A DNA stretch of 31,395 nt from IMG/VR virus record IMGVR_UViG_3300025132_000176, positions 1-31,395 of that record; one strand, 5' to 3'. Made by a program: the position numbers and the translations under genes. Of this stretch, positions 3,670 to 28,789 are shown piece after piece. The stretch is from a virus. The notes beneath the pieces were generated by a model. That model saw nothing but the letters and a program-made list of their open reading frames with translations. It had not been told where the DNA came from and did not search any database. Positions within the stretch are counted from its first letter, which is position 1; each line of letters opens with the position of its first letter.

Positions 3670-5493
3670 TTAATCGATCATCCTTGGAACAAAAGTCGCA
3701 TTAACTTCTTCGACTTTTTGTTTTTTCATATCATTATAGGCTTTGACGGCCCAGTTTCCCAACATTAATGTTGTATAATTATCTTTTCTTGCCCTATTGG
3801 CAGAGTTGCTTCTCCTTAAATGCTGCGGCAGATCAAAACTCTGAGTGCCTTTTGCAGTTGATTTTACCTCTACTAGAGCGCACTGTTTCTTTGTTTGGTA
3901 AACTAAGTCATCTTGAGCTTCTATCATTTCCCCAATATCTTCGAAGTGAGTAAGCTTTAACGGAATTTTACTAGATGAAACTTTTGAAAAGAAACTGCCG
4001 TATGCTCCGGTTCTGGATGCAAAAAATATTTTTTTATGATCTATGCAGGACTGCAAATACTCATTGGCGTTTCTTAAAAATTCGGAACTAAATACTTGCT
4101 TAAAACAAACTATGTCATCTTTAGGGCTATAAACCCTCTTGACTCTTTTAAGTTCATTGTCGTATGCCACACCCTGCTTTTCTGTGTTAAAATCAAAAAA
4201 CTTTATGGCAAGGCCAGCTTCTCTGAATAGTTCTGATTCATTTGCGCTATCAATAAACTGATAACCAGCATTATCTATGATTATTATTTTTATATTGAAA
4301 TTCTTATAAAGGTAAAATAAATACTTGATATGATCTTTTAAGTCTCCACCAGCCACAGCGTAAGAATGAACTAGAGTATACGATCCCTCATCCAGCTCTA
4401 AAAGCGACATGGCGAAATAATCAGAGCTAGGACTGTTGCTAAAACTGGGGTCTATGCCGAGTATATACTCCTTCTCTGTATTACCAGTAAGCAAAGTATG
4501 AGGAGACTCCCCATCTGGCACCGTGCACTCATGCATCTTCTTTGCGCTAAAATAGCTATCACTCCCGTCTGTAAACTGAGCACAGTACTCTCGCTGAAAA
4601 GAAGAATTGGACGAGCCTCCCGACTGAGCCTCTTCGATAATAGTTTTATCTATCATGTCTTCCGGTACAGAGTTGTAGCCCATTTGCGATATAAAATACT
4701 TAGAGTCTAATACGTCATCAGAGTAAATGTTTCCCATCCATTCTTTGTATGTTTTGTATAAATTTTCGAAGCTATAACTCGCAGAGGAAAGCGCTATCAT
4801 TTTTGATTTATTCTCGAACACCATCCTATCTTTTTCTTCCATCTTTCCGTTTTTAATTAAGCCATCTTCTATCTCTCTGACCCTAATTCTTTCAGCCATA
4901 TCTTGTGGCGCAACTAAGAATGGCATGAGTACAGTTTTAATAGTATCCTCTGGAAGTAAAAGATACTCGTCCAGCACTAAAATATTAGCACGGAACCCAC
5001 GAATTTTTTCGCCGCTCAAAGGAATTGCCGTAATGCTACCTCCGTTTATTCTCCACTCGAATTGATCATTACGTTTAGACTTAGCTCCGAAAGCCTGAGC
5101 TAGTAATTCTGCCCCTTTAGTATCCACTATCTTTTCTAAGTTTTGAAATATAAATCTAGCAGTACGAAATGTCGGACCGGCTATAAGAATTTTTGTATTT
5201 GGCTCGAAGATGCATTGAAGGAAGCAGTACACGGACGCGATAAAAGTCTTACCGCATCCGCGCCCCCAGACACACATGTTAAAGTTCCTGTTAAAGAATC
5301 CTTTTAAAGTTACCTCTTGAAAAGGCGCTAGTTTTATTCCAGATATTAACTCTACTGTAAATCCTAGATTTGATCTAAGAAACTTCGCTAAAGATATTTT
5401 AGCTTGTTTAGAATCTAGCTCTCCTTTTAGGTCTAAGAGCTCTAAATTCGTGTCTTTAACATCTCTTTTGTATTTTTCGTGAGCGTACCACAT
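3670..5493 (-). CDS. terL: Terminase large subunit
   Basis: 607 aa, a typical length for this packaging motor. The N-terminal ATPase shows a Walker A motif WGRGCGKT at residues 76-83 and a Walker B motif ILVLDE at 171-176 (D175, E176). The C-terminal RNase H-like nuclease shows its first acidic residue in LGIDPS (D348), the second in IIIIDNAG (D407), and late aspartates in EAQDD (528-529). It would translocate genomic DNA into the prohead and cut it. The start ATG overlaps the stop of a 26-codon membrane peptide gene (TAATG), which implies translational coupling. The paired small subunit is not obvious; the 364-aa protein two genes upstream is a possible candidate. Confidence 0.95.
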   Translation of the reverse strand: MWYAHEKYKRDVKDTNLELLDLKGELDSKQAKISLAKFLRSNLGFTVELISGIKLAPFQEVTLKGFFNRNFNMCVWGRGCGKTFIASVYCFLQCIFEPNTKILIAGPTFRTARFIFQNLEKIVDTKGAELLAQAFGAKSKRNDQFEWRINGGSITAIPLSGEKIRGFRANILVLDEYLLLPEDTIKTVLMPFLVAPQDMAERIRVREIEDGLIKNGKMEEKDRMVFENKSKMIALSSASYSFENLYKTYKEWMGNIYSDDVLDSKYFISQMGYNSVPEDMIDKTIIEEAQSGGSSNSSFQREYCAQFTDGSDSYFSAKKMHECTVPDGESPHTLLTGNTEKEYILGIDPSFSNSPSSDYFAMSLLELDEGSYTLVHSYAVAGGDLKDHIKYLFYLYKNFNIKIIIIDNAGYQFIDSANESELFREAGLAIKFFDFNTEKQGVAYDNELKRVKRVYSPKDDIVCFKQVFSSEFLRNANEYLQSCIDHKKIFFASRTGAYGSFFSKVSSSKIPLKLTHFEDIGEMIEAQDDLVYQTKKQCALVEVKSTAKGTQSFDLPQHLRRSNSANRARKDNYTTLMLGNWAVKAYNDMKKQKVEEVNATFVPRMID

Positions 5494-24573: not shown

Positions 24574-25013
24574 AAAAACTAATCACACTTTTAGCATTGG
24601 GAGCGGTTACTCTATATGCATATAAAAATAATGGACTCAGCAGAGAAACAAAGATCGTCGCCATTACCATTCTGGCGGAGGCCAGAGGGGAGGGGGAAGC
24701 AGGAATGTACGCCGTTGGTGCTTGCATCGCTCAACGAGCATTTGAACGAAAGAAAACGCCTCAAGAAATCTGCTTGCAAAAATTCCAATTCAGTTGTTGG
24801 AATGGCAAGAAGTTAAGTGACCTTGAGCATCTGCTGAAGATTAAAGAAGCCAAGTACGCCATCAACGTAGCTAAAAATGTTAAACAGCTTTCCCGTAGCT
24901 TTATAGGATACGCGAATCATTATCACGCTACTTGGATGAAGAAACCACCCTACTGGGCGAAGGGCAAAAAGCCAGTTAAGATTATCGGACAACACGCATT
25001 CTACAAGCTATGA
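24570..25013 (+). CDS. SleB-type cell-wall hydrolase (endolysin candidate)
   Basis: 147 aa. An N-terminal hydrophobic segment (LITLLALGAVTLYAY, about 4-18) could be a signal-anchor. The Hydrolase_2/SleB domain follows: ITILAEARGEGEAGMYAVGA (catalytic Glu at E37 in LAEARGE), CIAQRAFERKKTPQEICL, FQFSCWNG, and the C-terminal GYANHYHATW ... GQHAFYK. Enzymes of this family cleave peptidoglycan glycan strands, often as lytic transglycosylases. With a signal-anchor it could act as a SAR-type endolysin. It lies between a small acidic gene and a large unknown gene, overlapping both by 4 nt. No holin is obvious nearby. Confidence 0.85.
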   Translation: MKKLITLLALGAVTLYAYKNNGLSRETKIVAITILAEARGEGEAGMYAVGACIAQRAFERKKTPQEICLQKFQFSCWNGKKLSDLEHLLKIKEAKYAINVAKNVKQLSRSFIGYANHYHATWMKKPPYWAKGKKPVKIIGQHAFYKL

Positions 25014-26107
25014 GCAGTTTGAATTCAAAACATTTGAGAAAGGAAATAACTCCATACTCTAAATTATGGTTAAGGTATGCATCTGCAAGCTGTAAAATCT
25101 TTAAAGAAGAAATCGCATCTAAATTTTTTAAATACGACGATAGCGAGTTTCAGAGTAATCGCCAAAAAGAAAGATCAAGTCATATATCTGATAATATGGT
25201 CGGGTATTGTTGGGTAGGATTTGAATTAACCTACTGGAAAGATGATATTGCATTTTTGAAGCCTTCTATCTATACCGGTAGATCAAGAAACGTACCTAAT
25301 AGATTATCCGATACTTCAAAAGGATTTAACAAGCGAGAAAAATACTTGTTGTACGTTAACGAGACCTGCGAAGCTGATATAAATACTAAATCTAAATACG
25401 AAAGGATGATGAGCAAATACTGGAATAAGAAAATTCTAAATGCAAATCTTCCTGACGTATCGTGGGACTGTTTTTCTGTAATGGAACAGAGTAATATAAA
25501 CGCTGTAAAAAAACATATACAATCCTCTGATCATCCAGAAGTATGGACTATCCTAAATAAAAAAGATGAAGCAGGTCATTCCTTCTATAACCCTAAACTG
25601 CTTAAAGAATTAAAAAAGTTAGAAAAAGTTGTAAATAAAATAAATTATACCCTCATGCAAATAATGAGTTTTTATAGAGACTATTATAAAAATATAAAAA
25701 ATATTGGGTTTGCTAAAAAGAAAGCTATACTTTTACAAAAGTTTGAAGAAAAACTAAATAGACTAACTCCCTCTAGTTTGCACAACGAATTCTCATTTAG
25801 CCATGATTTTTCAACTGCTATTCCTCCACATCTTTTAAATGAAAATTTTATAGAATGCTCAAGAGCTTATGGAAATTTGCACATGGATCATGGAATTTAT
25901 GACTTGGACAGAGTTTTATTAATGGCGCTAGACCCCCACGCTGGGGCACATAATATAGACGGAAAATTTCAAAAATTTCTTCTTGACATGAAACATAGCT
26001 TGAGGATAGTTAAAGAAGAAGAAAAACAAAAACGGCGGGAAGCTCTACGAGAAAGAAATTTCCCAAAACGAAAAAAAACATTTGACACTCAGTTAGAACC
26101 GTGTTAA
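25010..26107 (+). CDS. Unknown protein, possible GIY-YIG-like segment
   Basis: 365 aa, Lys-rich. Residues about 75-150 contain LKPSIYTGRSRNVPNRLSD followed about 30 residues later by YERMMSKYWNKK. That recalls the second half of a GIY-YIG nuclease (YxGxSxNxxxRL, then a helix with a conserved Glu), but the first GIY strand is not clear. The rest is helical with a basic tail (EEEKQKRREALRERNFPKRK). AT-rich codons unlike the preceding hydrolase. May be a homing-type or restriction-like nuclease; low certainty. Confidence 0.45.
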   Translation: MSSLNSKHLRKEITPYSKLWLRYASASCKIFKEEIASKFFKYDDSEFQSNRQKERSSHISDNMVGYCWVGFELTYWKDDIAFLKPSIYTGRSRNVPNRLSDTSKGFNKREKYLLYVNETCEADINTKSKYERMMSKYWNKKILNANLPDVSWDCFSVMEQSNINAVKKHIQSSDHPEVWTILNKKDEAGHSFYNPKLLKELKKLEKVVNKINYTLMQIMSFYRDYYKNIKNIGFAKKKAILLQKFEEKLNRLTPSSLHNEFSFSHDFSTAIPPHLLNENFIECSRAYGNLHMDHGIYDLDRVLLMALDPHAGAHNIDGKFQKFLLDMKHSLRIVKEEEKQKRREALRERNFPKRKKTFDTQLEPC

Positions 26108-26143: not shown

Positions 26144-26335
26144 ATGAATATAACCGAAGCACAATTAAGAGACTTTCAGTTGCAGAGAGCAACCATGCTC
26201 CAGCAGATTAAAGAAAAGGATCAAACTATCGTTAGGCTTACCCAAGCGAAAATAAAGTTAGAAAAAAAGCTTGACGAAAGAAAAGAAGTAATTTATGATG
26301 TGGATTCGTTTGAGGGTGGTTCCTCTCACGTTTGA
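26144..26335 (+). CDS. Small coiled-coil protein
   Basis: 63 aa: a helical coil (LQQIKEKDQTIVRLTQAKIK, LEKKLDERKEVI) and a short acidic/Gly tail. No family recognised. It has its own promoter and sits directly before the structured RNA region. Confidence 0.5.
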   Translation: MNITEAQLRDFQLQRATMLQQIKEKDQTIVRLTQAKIKLEKKLDERKEVIYDVDSFEGGSSHV

Positions 26336-26339
26336 TTGT

Positions 26340-27005
26340 TCCATATAACCCTGTTAGTGGAGGTCAACTAACAAGTCATACGATTAAGGGGGTCAGACTG
26401 GGCTGACTTAAAACAACCCAGACAATTTTTGTTCTTTGAAAATTTAGAGTGGGATAGATCTGCTAGTAAGATGCAGCAAGGGCGTATTCACACTTGCTTT
26501 CTTGCATTGGGCAAGTGATACCATACTTCATAGGGTAGTCCTTTTTGAACACCACTCTAATCAATTTGTTCTTGAGTTTGCGGCCAAATATTGATGCTTG
26601 TTGGACATGTATCATCATAACAAATAAAAAAACTCAGGCTATGCGAGTCTACGGAATTTAGACAGCCAAACATAACTGGCTCGAAACGTTCACTCAGCGA
26701 GTTTTCCTCAAGAACATTCAATTTGAGTTGACGGAGTTAAATACCCCTGCGAGTTTCTCGATGTACTCGCGCCCGTTTTACTGCTGGTGGTGCGGCAGCA
26801 ACTCATGAATTTCCTTTCTCGACGGAGAGAGGCGGTGTGGCATGAATTAATCCCTCCCAAGGGGATAAGGCAGCACCTGCGGAAGTAGCAACGGCCAAGT
26901 GGCAGCGTCAAAACGTGGGTGAGTCCGAAGTAGGTTGATAAGAAACTTTGTTTCTCGGGAACCGAAAAGGTGTTGGTAGACAAATAATCCAACCACCATT
27001 TTTTA
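26340..27005 (+). ncRNA. Candidate large structured non-coding RNA
   Basis: About 660 nt with no credible gene and many local and nested helices. (1) H-type pseudoknot: GTCAG/CTGAC (26392-96, 26403-07) whose loop CTGGG (26398-402) pairs with CCCAG (26417-21). (2) 9-bp helix TTAGAGTGG/CCACTCTAA (26444-52, 26552-60) enclosing CTGC/GCAG and CACTTGC/GCAAGTG (26491-97, 26511-17). (3) GGCT-GTCTA/TAGAC-AGCC (26637-67). (4) GCGAGT/ACTCGC (26749-70). (5) CTTTCTC GACG GAGAGAG (26814-31). (6) ATCCC/GGGAT (26850-66). (7) AGAAAC TTT GTTTCT (26941-55). (8) GGTG-TTGG/CCAA-CACC (26969-97) before ATTTTTT, terminator-like. Less AT-rich than neighbouring spacers. Size, complexity and phage setting recall GOLLD/ROOL-type RNAs; I cannot assign a class. 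The 5' end is uncertain: it may share the 26082 promoter or start near 26340. Confidence 0.65.
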
Positions 27006-27030
27006 ATTTAAAATAGTAAGTTAAATAATA

Positions 27031-27276
27031 ATGAATAAAGAAATCAAAAAATACTTAAACGAATTAGTCGCCTATATGGCCGACGATCTACACCTAGAAG
27101 GTTTACCTGATAAAATGAGTCGCAGGGCTTGCCAGCTATCGGATGCCGCAGACATTCTAAAAGAACATTTAGAAGGTGAGCAGTCCGAAAAAGAAACCAA
27201 GATAAAGCTGAAAGCGATGGAGCTGGAGATTGGAAAAAAAGACTGCTATCTCTGGAAACGTATGCCAGCACCTTAA
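27031..27276 (+). CDS. Small helical protein
   Basis: 81 aa, acidic N-terminal half (LNELVAYMADDLHLEGLPDK) and a charged helix (EKETKIKLKAMELEIGKKDC). It begins about 25 nt after the terminator-like hairpin of the structured RNA and may be read through from it. Function unknown. Confidence 0.5.
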   Translation: MNKEIKKYLNELVAYMADDLHLEGLPDKMSRRACQLSDAADILKEHLEGEQSEKETKIKLKAMELEIGKKDCYLWKRMPAP

Positions 27277-27287
27277 TAAATTTAACG

Positions 27288-27503
27288 ATGAAAACCAAAC
27301 ACGCCCAAAGGAAGGCGGAGAAAAGAAAGCTGACTCGCAGCATTAAACTTGAAGCAGTCAAGACTCGAAACATAATTGTTCGCGGCTTGAAGCTGGAAGT
27401 CAAAAGGGACTTTCGTAGGTGCAAAAAGAACCACGCTGGAGACGTGGAAGTAATTTCCTACATAAAAAAGCTAGAATCTCAAGTTAATCAAATACTTTCG
27501 TAG
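27288..27503 (+). CDS. Small highly basic protein
   Basis: 71 aa, Lys/Arg-rich throughout (HAQRKAEKRKLTRSIKLEAV, KRDFRRCKKNH). Nucleic-acid binding is likely from charge alone. Follows the previous gene by 11 nt and is closed by a terminator. Confidence 0.5.
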   Translation: MKTKHAQRKAEKRKLTRSIKLEAVKTRNIIVRGLKLEVKRDFRRCKKNHAGDVEVISYIKKLESQVNQILS

Positions 27504-27549
27504 ACTCCTCCTGAGATACGTTTAGTCATTTTACGTATCACCTAGAACA

Positions 27550-27582
27550 ATCCTAGTGGTCAACACCACTAGGATTTTTTTT
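27550..27582 (+). terminator. Intrinsic terminator
   Basis: ATCCTAGTGGT / ACCACTAGGAT, CAAC loop, then TTTTTTT. Confidence 0.92.
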
Positions 27583-27772: not shown

Positions 27773-28789
27773 ATGAAGACTACTAATAATAAAACTGTAT
27801 ACGCTAGTTCTAAGTCATTAAAGGCTAAGGCAAATGAAATAACAAAACGAGCAAAGGCCGCTAAGGAGCATTTGCTAAATGGCAACTTTGAGAGTGACAC
27901 TCTTGTGGTTGCACCTCGCAACGTCACGCCAGAAGATGCATTAGAGATTCTAAAGCATAGAAACTTCTTGTATGAAAACGAGGAACAAGTATCCACTAAT
28001 CGAAACCTAGATCCGAGAATCGTAGCTAGGATCAAGATGGATATTCAAGAAAGCGAGTGGCGAACCGCCGCATCGCGAATCATGTTTGACACTAGCGGTC
28101 ATCTGATTGATGGACAGCATACTCTCGCAGCAATCGCTGAGTCGGGACGTAATGTTGAGGCAATGTTCTTTTTGGGAGTACCTAAAGATACTATCCAGAA
28201 AATTGACATAAGCCGACCGAGGACAATCGCACAAAGATTAAAATTCTCAGGTGCGTTACCCATTGAATCTAATGTTGATTCAAAGTTCAGAGTTGACGTT
28301 TCAAATATAATTCTCAGGTCAAAGTTCACTTTACTGGGCAAGCCTATCCTCGAACCAAGAAAGCTAGTTGATAGGGCTTGGTATAACGACAAGAAGATTA
28401 TAGATACTTGCAACAAGTATAAAGATCATATAGAATACTTTATGAATAATAAGAGCAAAAAAGCTCAATTCAAAAAAGTATCTCTGATTGCTCCTATGGT
28501 TTTAGCTCGTTCTAAGAACCAAGAGAAAGCAGAGGAATTCTATATGAAATTCTTGAACCCTGACTTACGGACATCATCCAAGAACAAGGCTCCTGCAAAG
28601 CTCAATTGGCTGGTCAACCAAATCGCGAAGTCTAAAAAGGAAGGAGTTCTCTCTACAAAAGAACTCTTAAATGGAAGAAGCGAAGTTAACTTTTGGTTTT
28701 GGCAAGCCTCAAAAGCTATCAATGCTTACACAAATAATAAATCGTATCCATCAATGAAAATCAACGGTAAAACTTATCCTAATGCCTAA
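27773..28789 (+). CDS. ParB-like nuclease-domain phage protein
   Basis: 338 aa. After a basic helical N terminus, residues about 75-165 follow the ParB/Sulfiredoxin-like pattern: LDPRIVARIKMDIQESEWRT, MFDTSGHLIDGQHTLAAIAE, GVPKDTIQKIDISRPRTIAQ. Phage relatives usually read DGQHR; here Arg is replaced by Thr (DGQHT, 113-117), which may alter the nucleotide or DNA contact. The C-terminal half is helical and unrecognised. Such proteins bind or nick DNA or hydrolyse CTP; the role here is unknown. It overlaps the next gene by 8 nt. Confidence 0.7.
   Translation: MKTTNNKTVYASSKSLKAKANEITKRAKAAKEHLLNGNFESDTLVVAPRNVTPEDALEILKHRNFLYENEEQVSTNRNLDPRIVARIKMDIQESEWRTAASRIMFDTSGHLIDGQHTLAAIAESGRNVEAMFFLGVPKDTIQKIDISRPRTIAQRLKFSGALPIESNVDSKFRVDVSNIILRSKFTLLGKPILEPRKLVDRAWYNDKKIIDTCNKYKDHIEYFMNNKSKKAQFKKVSLIAPMVLARSKNQEKAEEFYMKFLNPDLRTSSKNKAPAKLNWLVNQIAKSKKEGVLSTKELLNGRSEVNFWFWQASKAINAYTNNKSYPSMKINGKTYPNA

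Follow-up and report, generated by a model that had tools for sequence, protein, structure and literature searches.

Comparative evidence established that positions 26340-27005 (plus strand) of a viral DNA stretch of 31,395 nucleotides (IMG/VR record IMGVR_UViG_3300025132_000176; the whole stretch is referred to as the window) are a conserved structured RNA with no conserved reading frame. The RNA is a chain of five domains, A, M1, B, C, and D, with AAUUU linkers, and not one 660-nt molecule of the GOLLD or ROOL kind. In this uncultured marine phage, the leader has a length of about 700 bases and is placed ahead of a small-gene operon, and its anatomy gives good support to its description as a modular 5′ leader of the operon that carries the KTKH-family gene. 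Domains, conservation, covariation, domain order and shuffling, the linkage of D with the KTKH gene, and the promoter and terminator candidates were all obtained computationally. The features are as follows.

26271..26299, plus strand: candidate sigma-70 promoter TTGACG-17-TATGAT; the transcript start would be near 26306
26311..26328, plus strand: 5′-terminal hairpin, sequence UGAGGGUGGUUCCUCUCA
26352..26373, plus strand: hairpin a0, UGUUAGU-GGAGGUCA-ACUAACA, whose loop holds the Shine-Dalgarno-like GGAGGU
26392..26421, plus strand: domain A, H-type pseudoknot with stems S1 GUCAG/CUGAC and S2 CUGGG/CCCAG
26424..27009, plus strand: AAUUU linkers at 26424, 26441, 26563, 26720, 26808, and 27005, the domain edges
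26444..26560, plus strand: domain M1, 9-bp closing helix UUAGAGUGG/CCACUCUAA around hairpins
26568..26715, plus strand: domain B, closing helix GUUCUUGAG/CUCAAGAAC enclosing several hairpins
26724..26805, plus strand: domain C, closing helix, invariant GAGUUAAAUACCCCUG strand, variable hairpin, and GUGGUG-loop hairpin
26809..27002, plus strand: domain D, manA-related (RF01745 at 39.7 bits; 15-sequence alignment, covariation, model R2)
27031..27276, plus strand: 81-aa ORF directly 3′ of the leader, its AUG 31 nt after CCACCAU
27288..27503, plus strand: KTKH-family gene for a 71-aa basic helical-hairpin protein
27549..27576, plus strand: intrinsic terminator candidate of the operon, a 12-bp stem followed by a T run

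Structured domains of the leader

As the preliminary description had stated, no believable gene was found within 26340-27005, and no frame stayed open in all the homologues compared, which were homologues of the 3′ half of the stretch. The folding energy of the whole stretch was not unusual on the plus strand relative to shuffles (z −0.75), with values of z −2.7 on the minus strand and z −0.8 to −2.4 for single window domains. Since the plus-strand value is so modest and complementarity alone is no proof, the reality of the RNA rests on comparison, which supports an above-chance RNA even though thermodynamics alone says no. Among the homologues, compensatory changes were found for A (pseudoknot included), C, and D, as well as for the closing stems of B and M1, as judged from the aligned sequences. 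The structures of D and C were derived from the very alignments used for scoring, which favours both of them; independent evidence comes from the Rfam match of D and from members that the models recovered without having seen them. The multi-helix RNA proposed earlier thus proved to be real and conserved on the plus strand, by covariation together with Rfam and reciprocal model matches, and every helix named there, the H-type pseudoknot and the 9-bp helix at 26444-26560 among them, was found at its given position.

At gathering scores, tRNA-Cys was the only Rfam match in the window. A, M1, B, and C had no Rfam family match and are four structured elements absent from Rfam; the earlier statement that the RNA fits no named class and may be new therefore holds for these four and fails for D. 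The suggested search for GOLLD, ROOL, OLE, introns, tmRNA, and RNase P returned no Rfam match, either in the window at the gathering score or in the region at E up to 10. The tRNA-Cys 4 kb away, which had been read as a GOLLD- or ROOL-like context, lies on the other strand.

The score of the candidate promoter was equalled by 0.7% of same-length stretches in the window, and homologous leaders carried TTGACA-17-TAnnnT at similar positions. The 5′ end of the leader RNA is probably near 26306, slightly upstream of 26340. The 5′-terminal hairpin was found in the same place in other long leaders as UUUUCCCUUCGGGGA (L100, L203, and L168). Hairpin a0 was the same in L100 as in the window, while in L203 the stem was GCUGGU/AUCAGC around an identical loop, which amounts to compensatory changes. 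The GGAGGU in the a0 loop is a perfect Shine-Dalgarno word that was kept while the stem varied (window, L100, and L203), in phages whose genes seldom have such sites.

In domain A, 99% of the cells were paired and double changes occurred in both stems, with GUCAG/CUGAC, GUCUG/CAGAC, and AUCGG/CCGAU as variants of S1 and CUGGG/CCCAG versus CAGGG/CCCUG for S2. The third loop held an inserted GGAA-loop hairpin with a covarying stem (GUA/UAC, GCA/UGC, and GCG/CGC) in most homologues; the window and L100 were without the insert. A pattern for A matched 7 contigs of 2.9 million, all seven of which also contained D.

Domain M1 had one homologue (L212), with the closing helix UUUGAAUGG/CCAUUCAAA and a conserved UGCUAnUAAGAUGCAGC; its local score of 37 against a maximum of 28 in 1000 shuffles is based on these two sequences. 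Four sequences supported domain B, whose closing helix was GCUUUUGAG/CUCAAAAGC in L168 and GCUCUUGAG/CUCAAGAGC in L203 and L214. Both sides of the closing helices of B and M1 had changed between homologues. In domain C, compensatory change was seen in 9 of 25 pairs, the model R1 recovered diverged copies in L205, L212, L213, and L214, and D was also present in every contig that matched a pattern for C (6/6). Domain C shares the conserved GUGGUGCGG with wcaG RNA (RF01761), and both occur in marine phages; however, its score of 14.3 bits (E 6.5) is far below the 42 bits required, other helices surround the motif, and on this evidence C would not be counted as a member.

AAUUU words occurred seven times in the region, six of them at domain edges and one elsewhere, at 26655. 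The word was also found immediately 5′ of D in homologues.

The manA-like domain and the KTKH gene

Domain D comprises the P1 hairpin, a closing helix GGUG/CACC, P2, P3, a loop-E-like P4, and P5. Under relaxed Rfam thresholds, 26815-27003 matched manA RNA (RF01745) over model positions 1-192 with 39.7 bits and E 1.1e-8, below the curated cut-off of 55.2 bits. Two large relatives of the window phage had D at 49.7 and 45.5 bits, and the D of L204 scored 58.4 bits, above the cut-off. Conversely, the model R2, built from 15 window-type D sequences, found all 30 classical manA loci tested (E 6e-10 to 1.5e-3), with full-length matches in all but one. Because of the full-model Rfam match, the L204 score above the cut-off, and this reciprocal detection, D is judged homologous to manA, as an outlying branch that in the window falls under the cut-off and is without a GUGGUG hairpin inside P3.

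The two share P1, the closing multi-branch helix, P2 to P5, a P5 with a GGUA..ACA..AAUCC loop, and a location immediately 5′ of a gene in marine phages, with an end-to-end match over the 192 positions. They differ in that the GUGGUG hairpin of the P3 junction is internal to classical manA; it was not found in the alignment of window-type D, and the window has a similar one in C instead. Moreover, classical manA is a single domain (the upstream gene ends a median of 33 nt before it), whereas D of the window is the end of a chain. Within D, compensatory change was seen in 17 of 46 pairs, and 97% of cells were paired versus at most 48% with the partner strand slid. A pattern for the D end matched at least 119 stretches of viral contigs; among the matches listed, most were classical manA, while a few, the window among them, formed a distinct branch. 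The exact D pattern was not found in a GTDB scan of one genome per bacterial and archaeal species.

The hairpin and U run at 26969-27003 were indeed present, as first described. However, the U run is not kept in homologues (L203 AUCUUAUUUU, L209 AUUUAUUUU), and a terminator scan made no call there. Since the U run is unconserved, the hairpin is probably not the terminator it was said to resemble; it is P5 plus the closing stem of the manA-like domain.

The position of D is that of a putative phage 5′ UTR, with an AUG or GUG start codon 10-16 nt downstream in 16 loci; in the window, the first AUG follows 31 nt after D and belongs to another ORF, the 81-aa one. A profile of the KTKH family found one copy in each of 15 of the 17 D-bearing records, always right behind D, as also in the window, with one extra ORF between D and the KTKH gene in the window and L214. 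L205 had an apparent diverged version, and L204 had none. The N-terminal helix of the KTKH protein is basic and invariant, and the structure model consists of two helices with a mean pLDDT of 92; from its basic charge, we infer that the protein binds nucleic acid. Searches of PHROGs, Pfam, and PDB with the KTKH protein returned nothing, the 81-aa ORF had no family match, and searches for relatives of the neighbour proteins at 25010-26107 and 27773-28789 were empty. DNA searches of cultured phage records found neither the leader nor the KTKH gene, and a protein search with KTKH likewise found none.

Domain order in homologous leaders

Window-type D was found in seventeen viral contigs. In the long forms (n = 10, including the window), A was the first domain and D the last; C, B, M1, or others stood between them, and each record had one strong D match. 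Domain orders were obtained from pattern scans for C, D, A, and M1 and from reading of the leaders:

Window: hp-a0-A-M1-B-C-D
L100: hp-a0-A-C-D
L203 and L206: hp-a0-A-B-C-D
L168: hp-A-X-B-Y-C-D
L210: A-hp-C-D
L212: hp-A-C′-M1-D
L213: A-X-C′-D
L214: A-B-C′-D
L204 and L205: A-C-D

M1 has changed place: it follows A and precedes B in the window, but is found between C′ and D in L212. Thus, going by these genomes, related phages drop or reorder leader domains. Domain X, which separates A from the domain that follows in L168 and L213, reads GGUCGC..GUAGCACCU..AAAAAGCGRCC, with a G-U change in its closing helix; the window has no X. In six short forms, D stood alone (L092, L110, L181, L208, L209, and L211), and the locus consisted of a promoter, D, and a gene. 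In five of these six, a sigma-70-like TTGACA-17-TAnnnT precedes D, its −10 box 19-22 nt away. In the 50,941-base record L204, D lies at 1234-1417 on the minus strand, and A-C-D is followed by an intrinsic terminator with no gene, the single instance of the RNA on its own.

Proposed role and competing explanations

On balance, we favour the view that this modular 5′ leader controls the KTKH operon, in which case D is the constant element and control is translational, most simply autogenous. The operon would be a unit of the long non-coding 5′ leader, the 81-aa ORF, the basic KTKH-family protein, and the terminator, with independently closed domains A-M1-B-C-D strung on AAUUU linkers. D would fold immediately next to the site of translation start, where its 3′ strand reaches into the room needed by an initiating ribosome, so that it most likely controls the operon at translation. 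In the simplest version, the basic KTKH protein would bind its own leader, as in T4 gp32 control, while the optional domains A, M1, B, and C, lost or shuffled among phages, would likely tune this control or RNA stability. From placement and linkage, we infer the action of D on translation and the binding of KTKH to D; transcription as one RNA is likewise a proposal. Control of KTKH by D is made less secure by L204, where a terminator but no gene comes after the leader, and by the first AUG of the window, which lies in another ORF. Since classical manA precedes unlike genes (gp32-type SSB, ThyX, and transaldolase), one dedicated regulator protein fits poorly. Shine-Dalgarno sites are scarce in these phages (15 of 116 genes); their absence after D is therefore uninformative, and the idea of D as a Shine-Dalgarno substitute was dropped. 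A terminator/antiterminator switch in D through the local GGU before P5 was also rejected, as it fails in L204 (GAU) and L205 (GUU).

The closest working analogy for such a mechanism is the T4 gene 32 leader, where the autogenous operator is an H-type pseudoknot of about 28-30 nt in the mRNA leader, followed by UUAAA (PMC535899). Domain A is likewise an H-type pseudoknot in a phage leader, with UUAAAA, and a putative nucleic-acid-binding protein, so classed by charge, is encoded behind it. The two systems differ in that KTKH is a 71-aa helical hairpin and not a gp32-type SSB, that no sequence relation is shown, and that the window leader has four further domains. Classical manA stood before a gp32-type SSB gene in 22 of 50 loci (L187, L188, L193, and L082 among them). 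In the available part of the 2010 report on manA RNA (Weinberg et al., 2010; PMC2864571; updated in Rfam 14, PMC7779021), the associated genes belong to mannose/fructose metabolism, nucleotide synthesis, ibpA, and photosynthesis, with no gp32-type SSB among them.

Several other explanations were weighed against the modular leader. A less likely reading is a new kind of phage RNA, composite and domain-shuffled, with fixed A and C-D and an exchangeable middle, forming a dedicated RNA-protein system with KTKH. In a related and unlikely reading, the RNA acts in trans as a stand-alone molecule and KTKH, from the same transcript, is its RNP partner, so that the linkage reflects joint work and not regulation. 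The fixed 5′ (A) and 3′ (C-D) ends of the long forms around a variable middle are GOLLD-like, as in GOLLD the 3′ part is conserved and the 5′ part varies (PMC12286853); the strict association of RNA and protein, seen in 15 of 17 records, and the geneless leader and terminator of L204 point the same way. GOLLD and ROOL also resemble the leader in size class (~660 nt), pseudoknots, and phage origin (PMC12286853), but here there is no Rfam match, no tRNA is adjacent, a gene follows 10-16 nt downstream with little variation in that gap, the domains are separable and reorderable, D is solitary in six loci, and the single-domain classical manA also precedes unrelated genes. The large ornate RNA originally envisaged is thus replaced by a separable-domain 5′ leader that is not evidently stand-alone.

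RNase E prefers to cleave at RNWUU. AAUUU at the domain edges matches this preference, and together with the stable hairpins at predicted 5′ ends and the unconstrained identity of the middle domains, it would suit a leader whose 5′ hairpin, pseudoknot, and domains protect the mRNA and whose linkers are cut by an RNase E-type enzyme to release or trim domains. We regard this as rather unlikely, as C and A hold long unpaired stretches that do not vary, which points beyond bulk protection, and the AU-rich linkers may be mere flexible spacers. A tandem riboswitch, in which D and perhaps further domains would switch the operon on binding small molecules, is improbable: manA was put forward as a riboswitch candidate in 2010 (PMC2864571), and multi-helix junctions and long conserved unpaired strands such as that of C would agree with ligand binding, but the genes behind manA are functionally unlike, and the homologues share no conserved expression platform: the U run 3′ of D is not kept. 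That there is no RNA element, only chance pairing or a diverged gene, is hardly credible; the shuffle-like folding energy of the whole region speaks for it, and the covariation in A, C, and D, the Rfam and reciprocal matches, and the lack of a frame open in all homologues speak against it.

While manA, GOLLD, ROOL, and gp32 operators are known already, a shuffled-domain chain ending in manA was not found described in the openly licensed literature. There, manA goes back to 2010 with no demonstrated function, and its place at the fixed end of a shuffled chain, tied to one basic-protein gene, provides a concrete partner and a testable system. The modular leader is also a case of structured phage RNA domains recombined as protein domains are, and it contributes A, M1, B, and C, four structured elements that Rfam lacks.

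The C loop GGUGGUG (26786-26792) is complementary to ACCACC at the D 3′ end (26989-26997), and by eye at least six pairs are possible in all long forms. This pairing could be a contact or a switch competing with the D closing helix; that all long forms allow the C-loop GGUGGYG to pair with the D 3′ CCACC, with one position varying, is suggestive only. The terminase large subunit of the window (3670-5493, minus strand) had at least 599 relatives in viral contigs and only about 24% identity to any cultured phage, and by these relatives the window phage is placed in an abundant group of uncultured marine phages.
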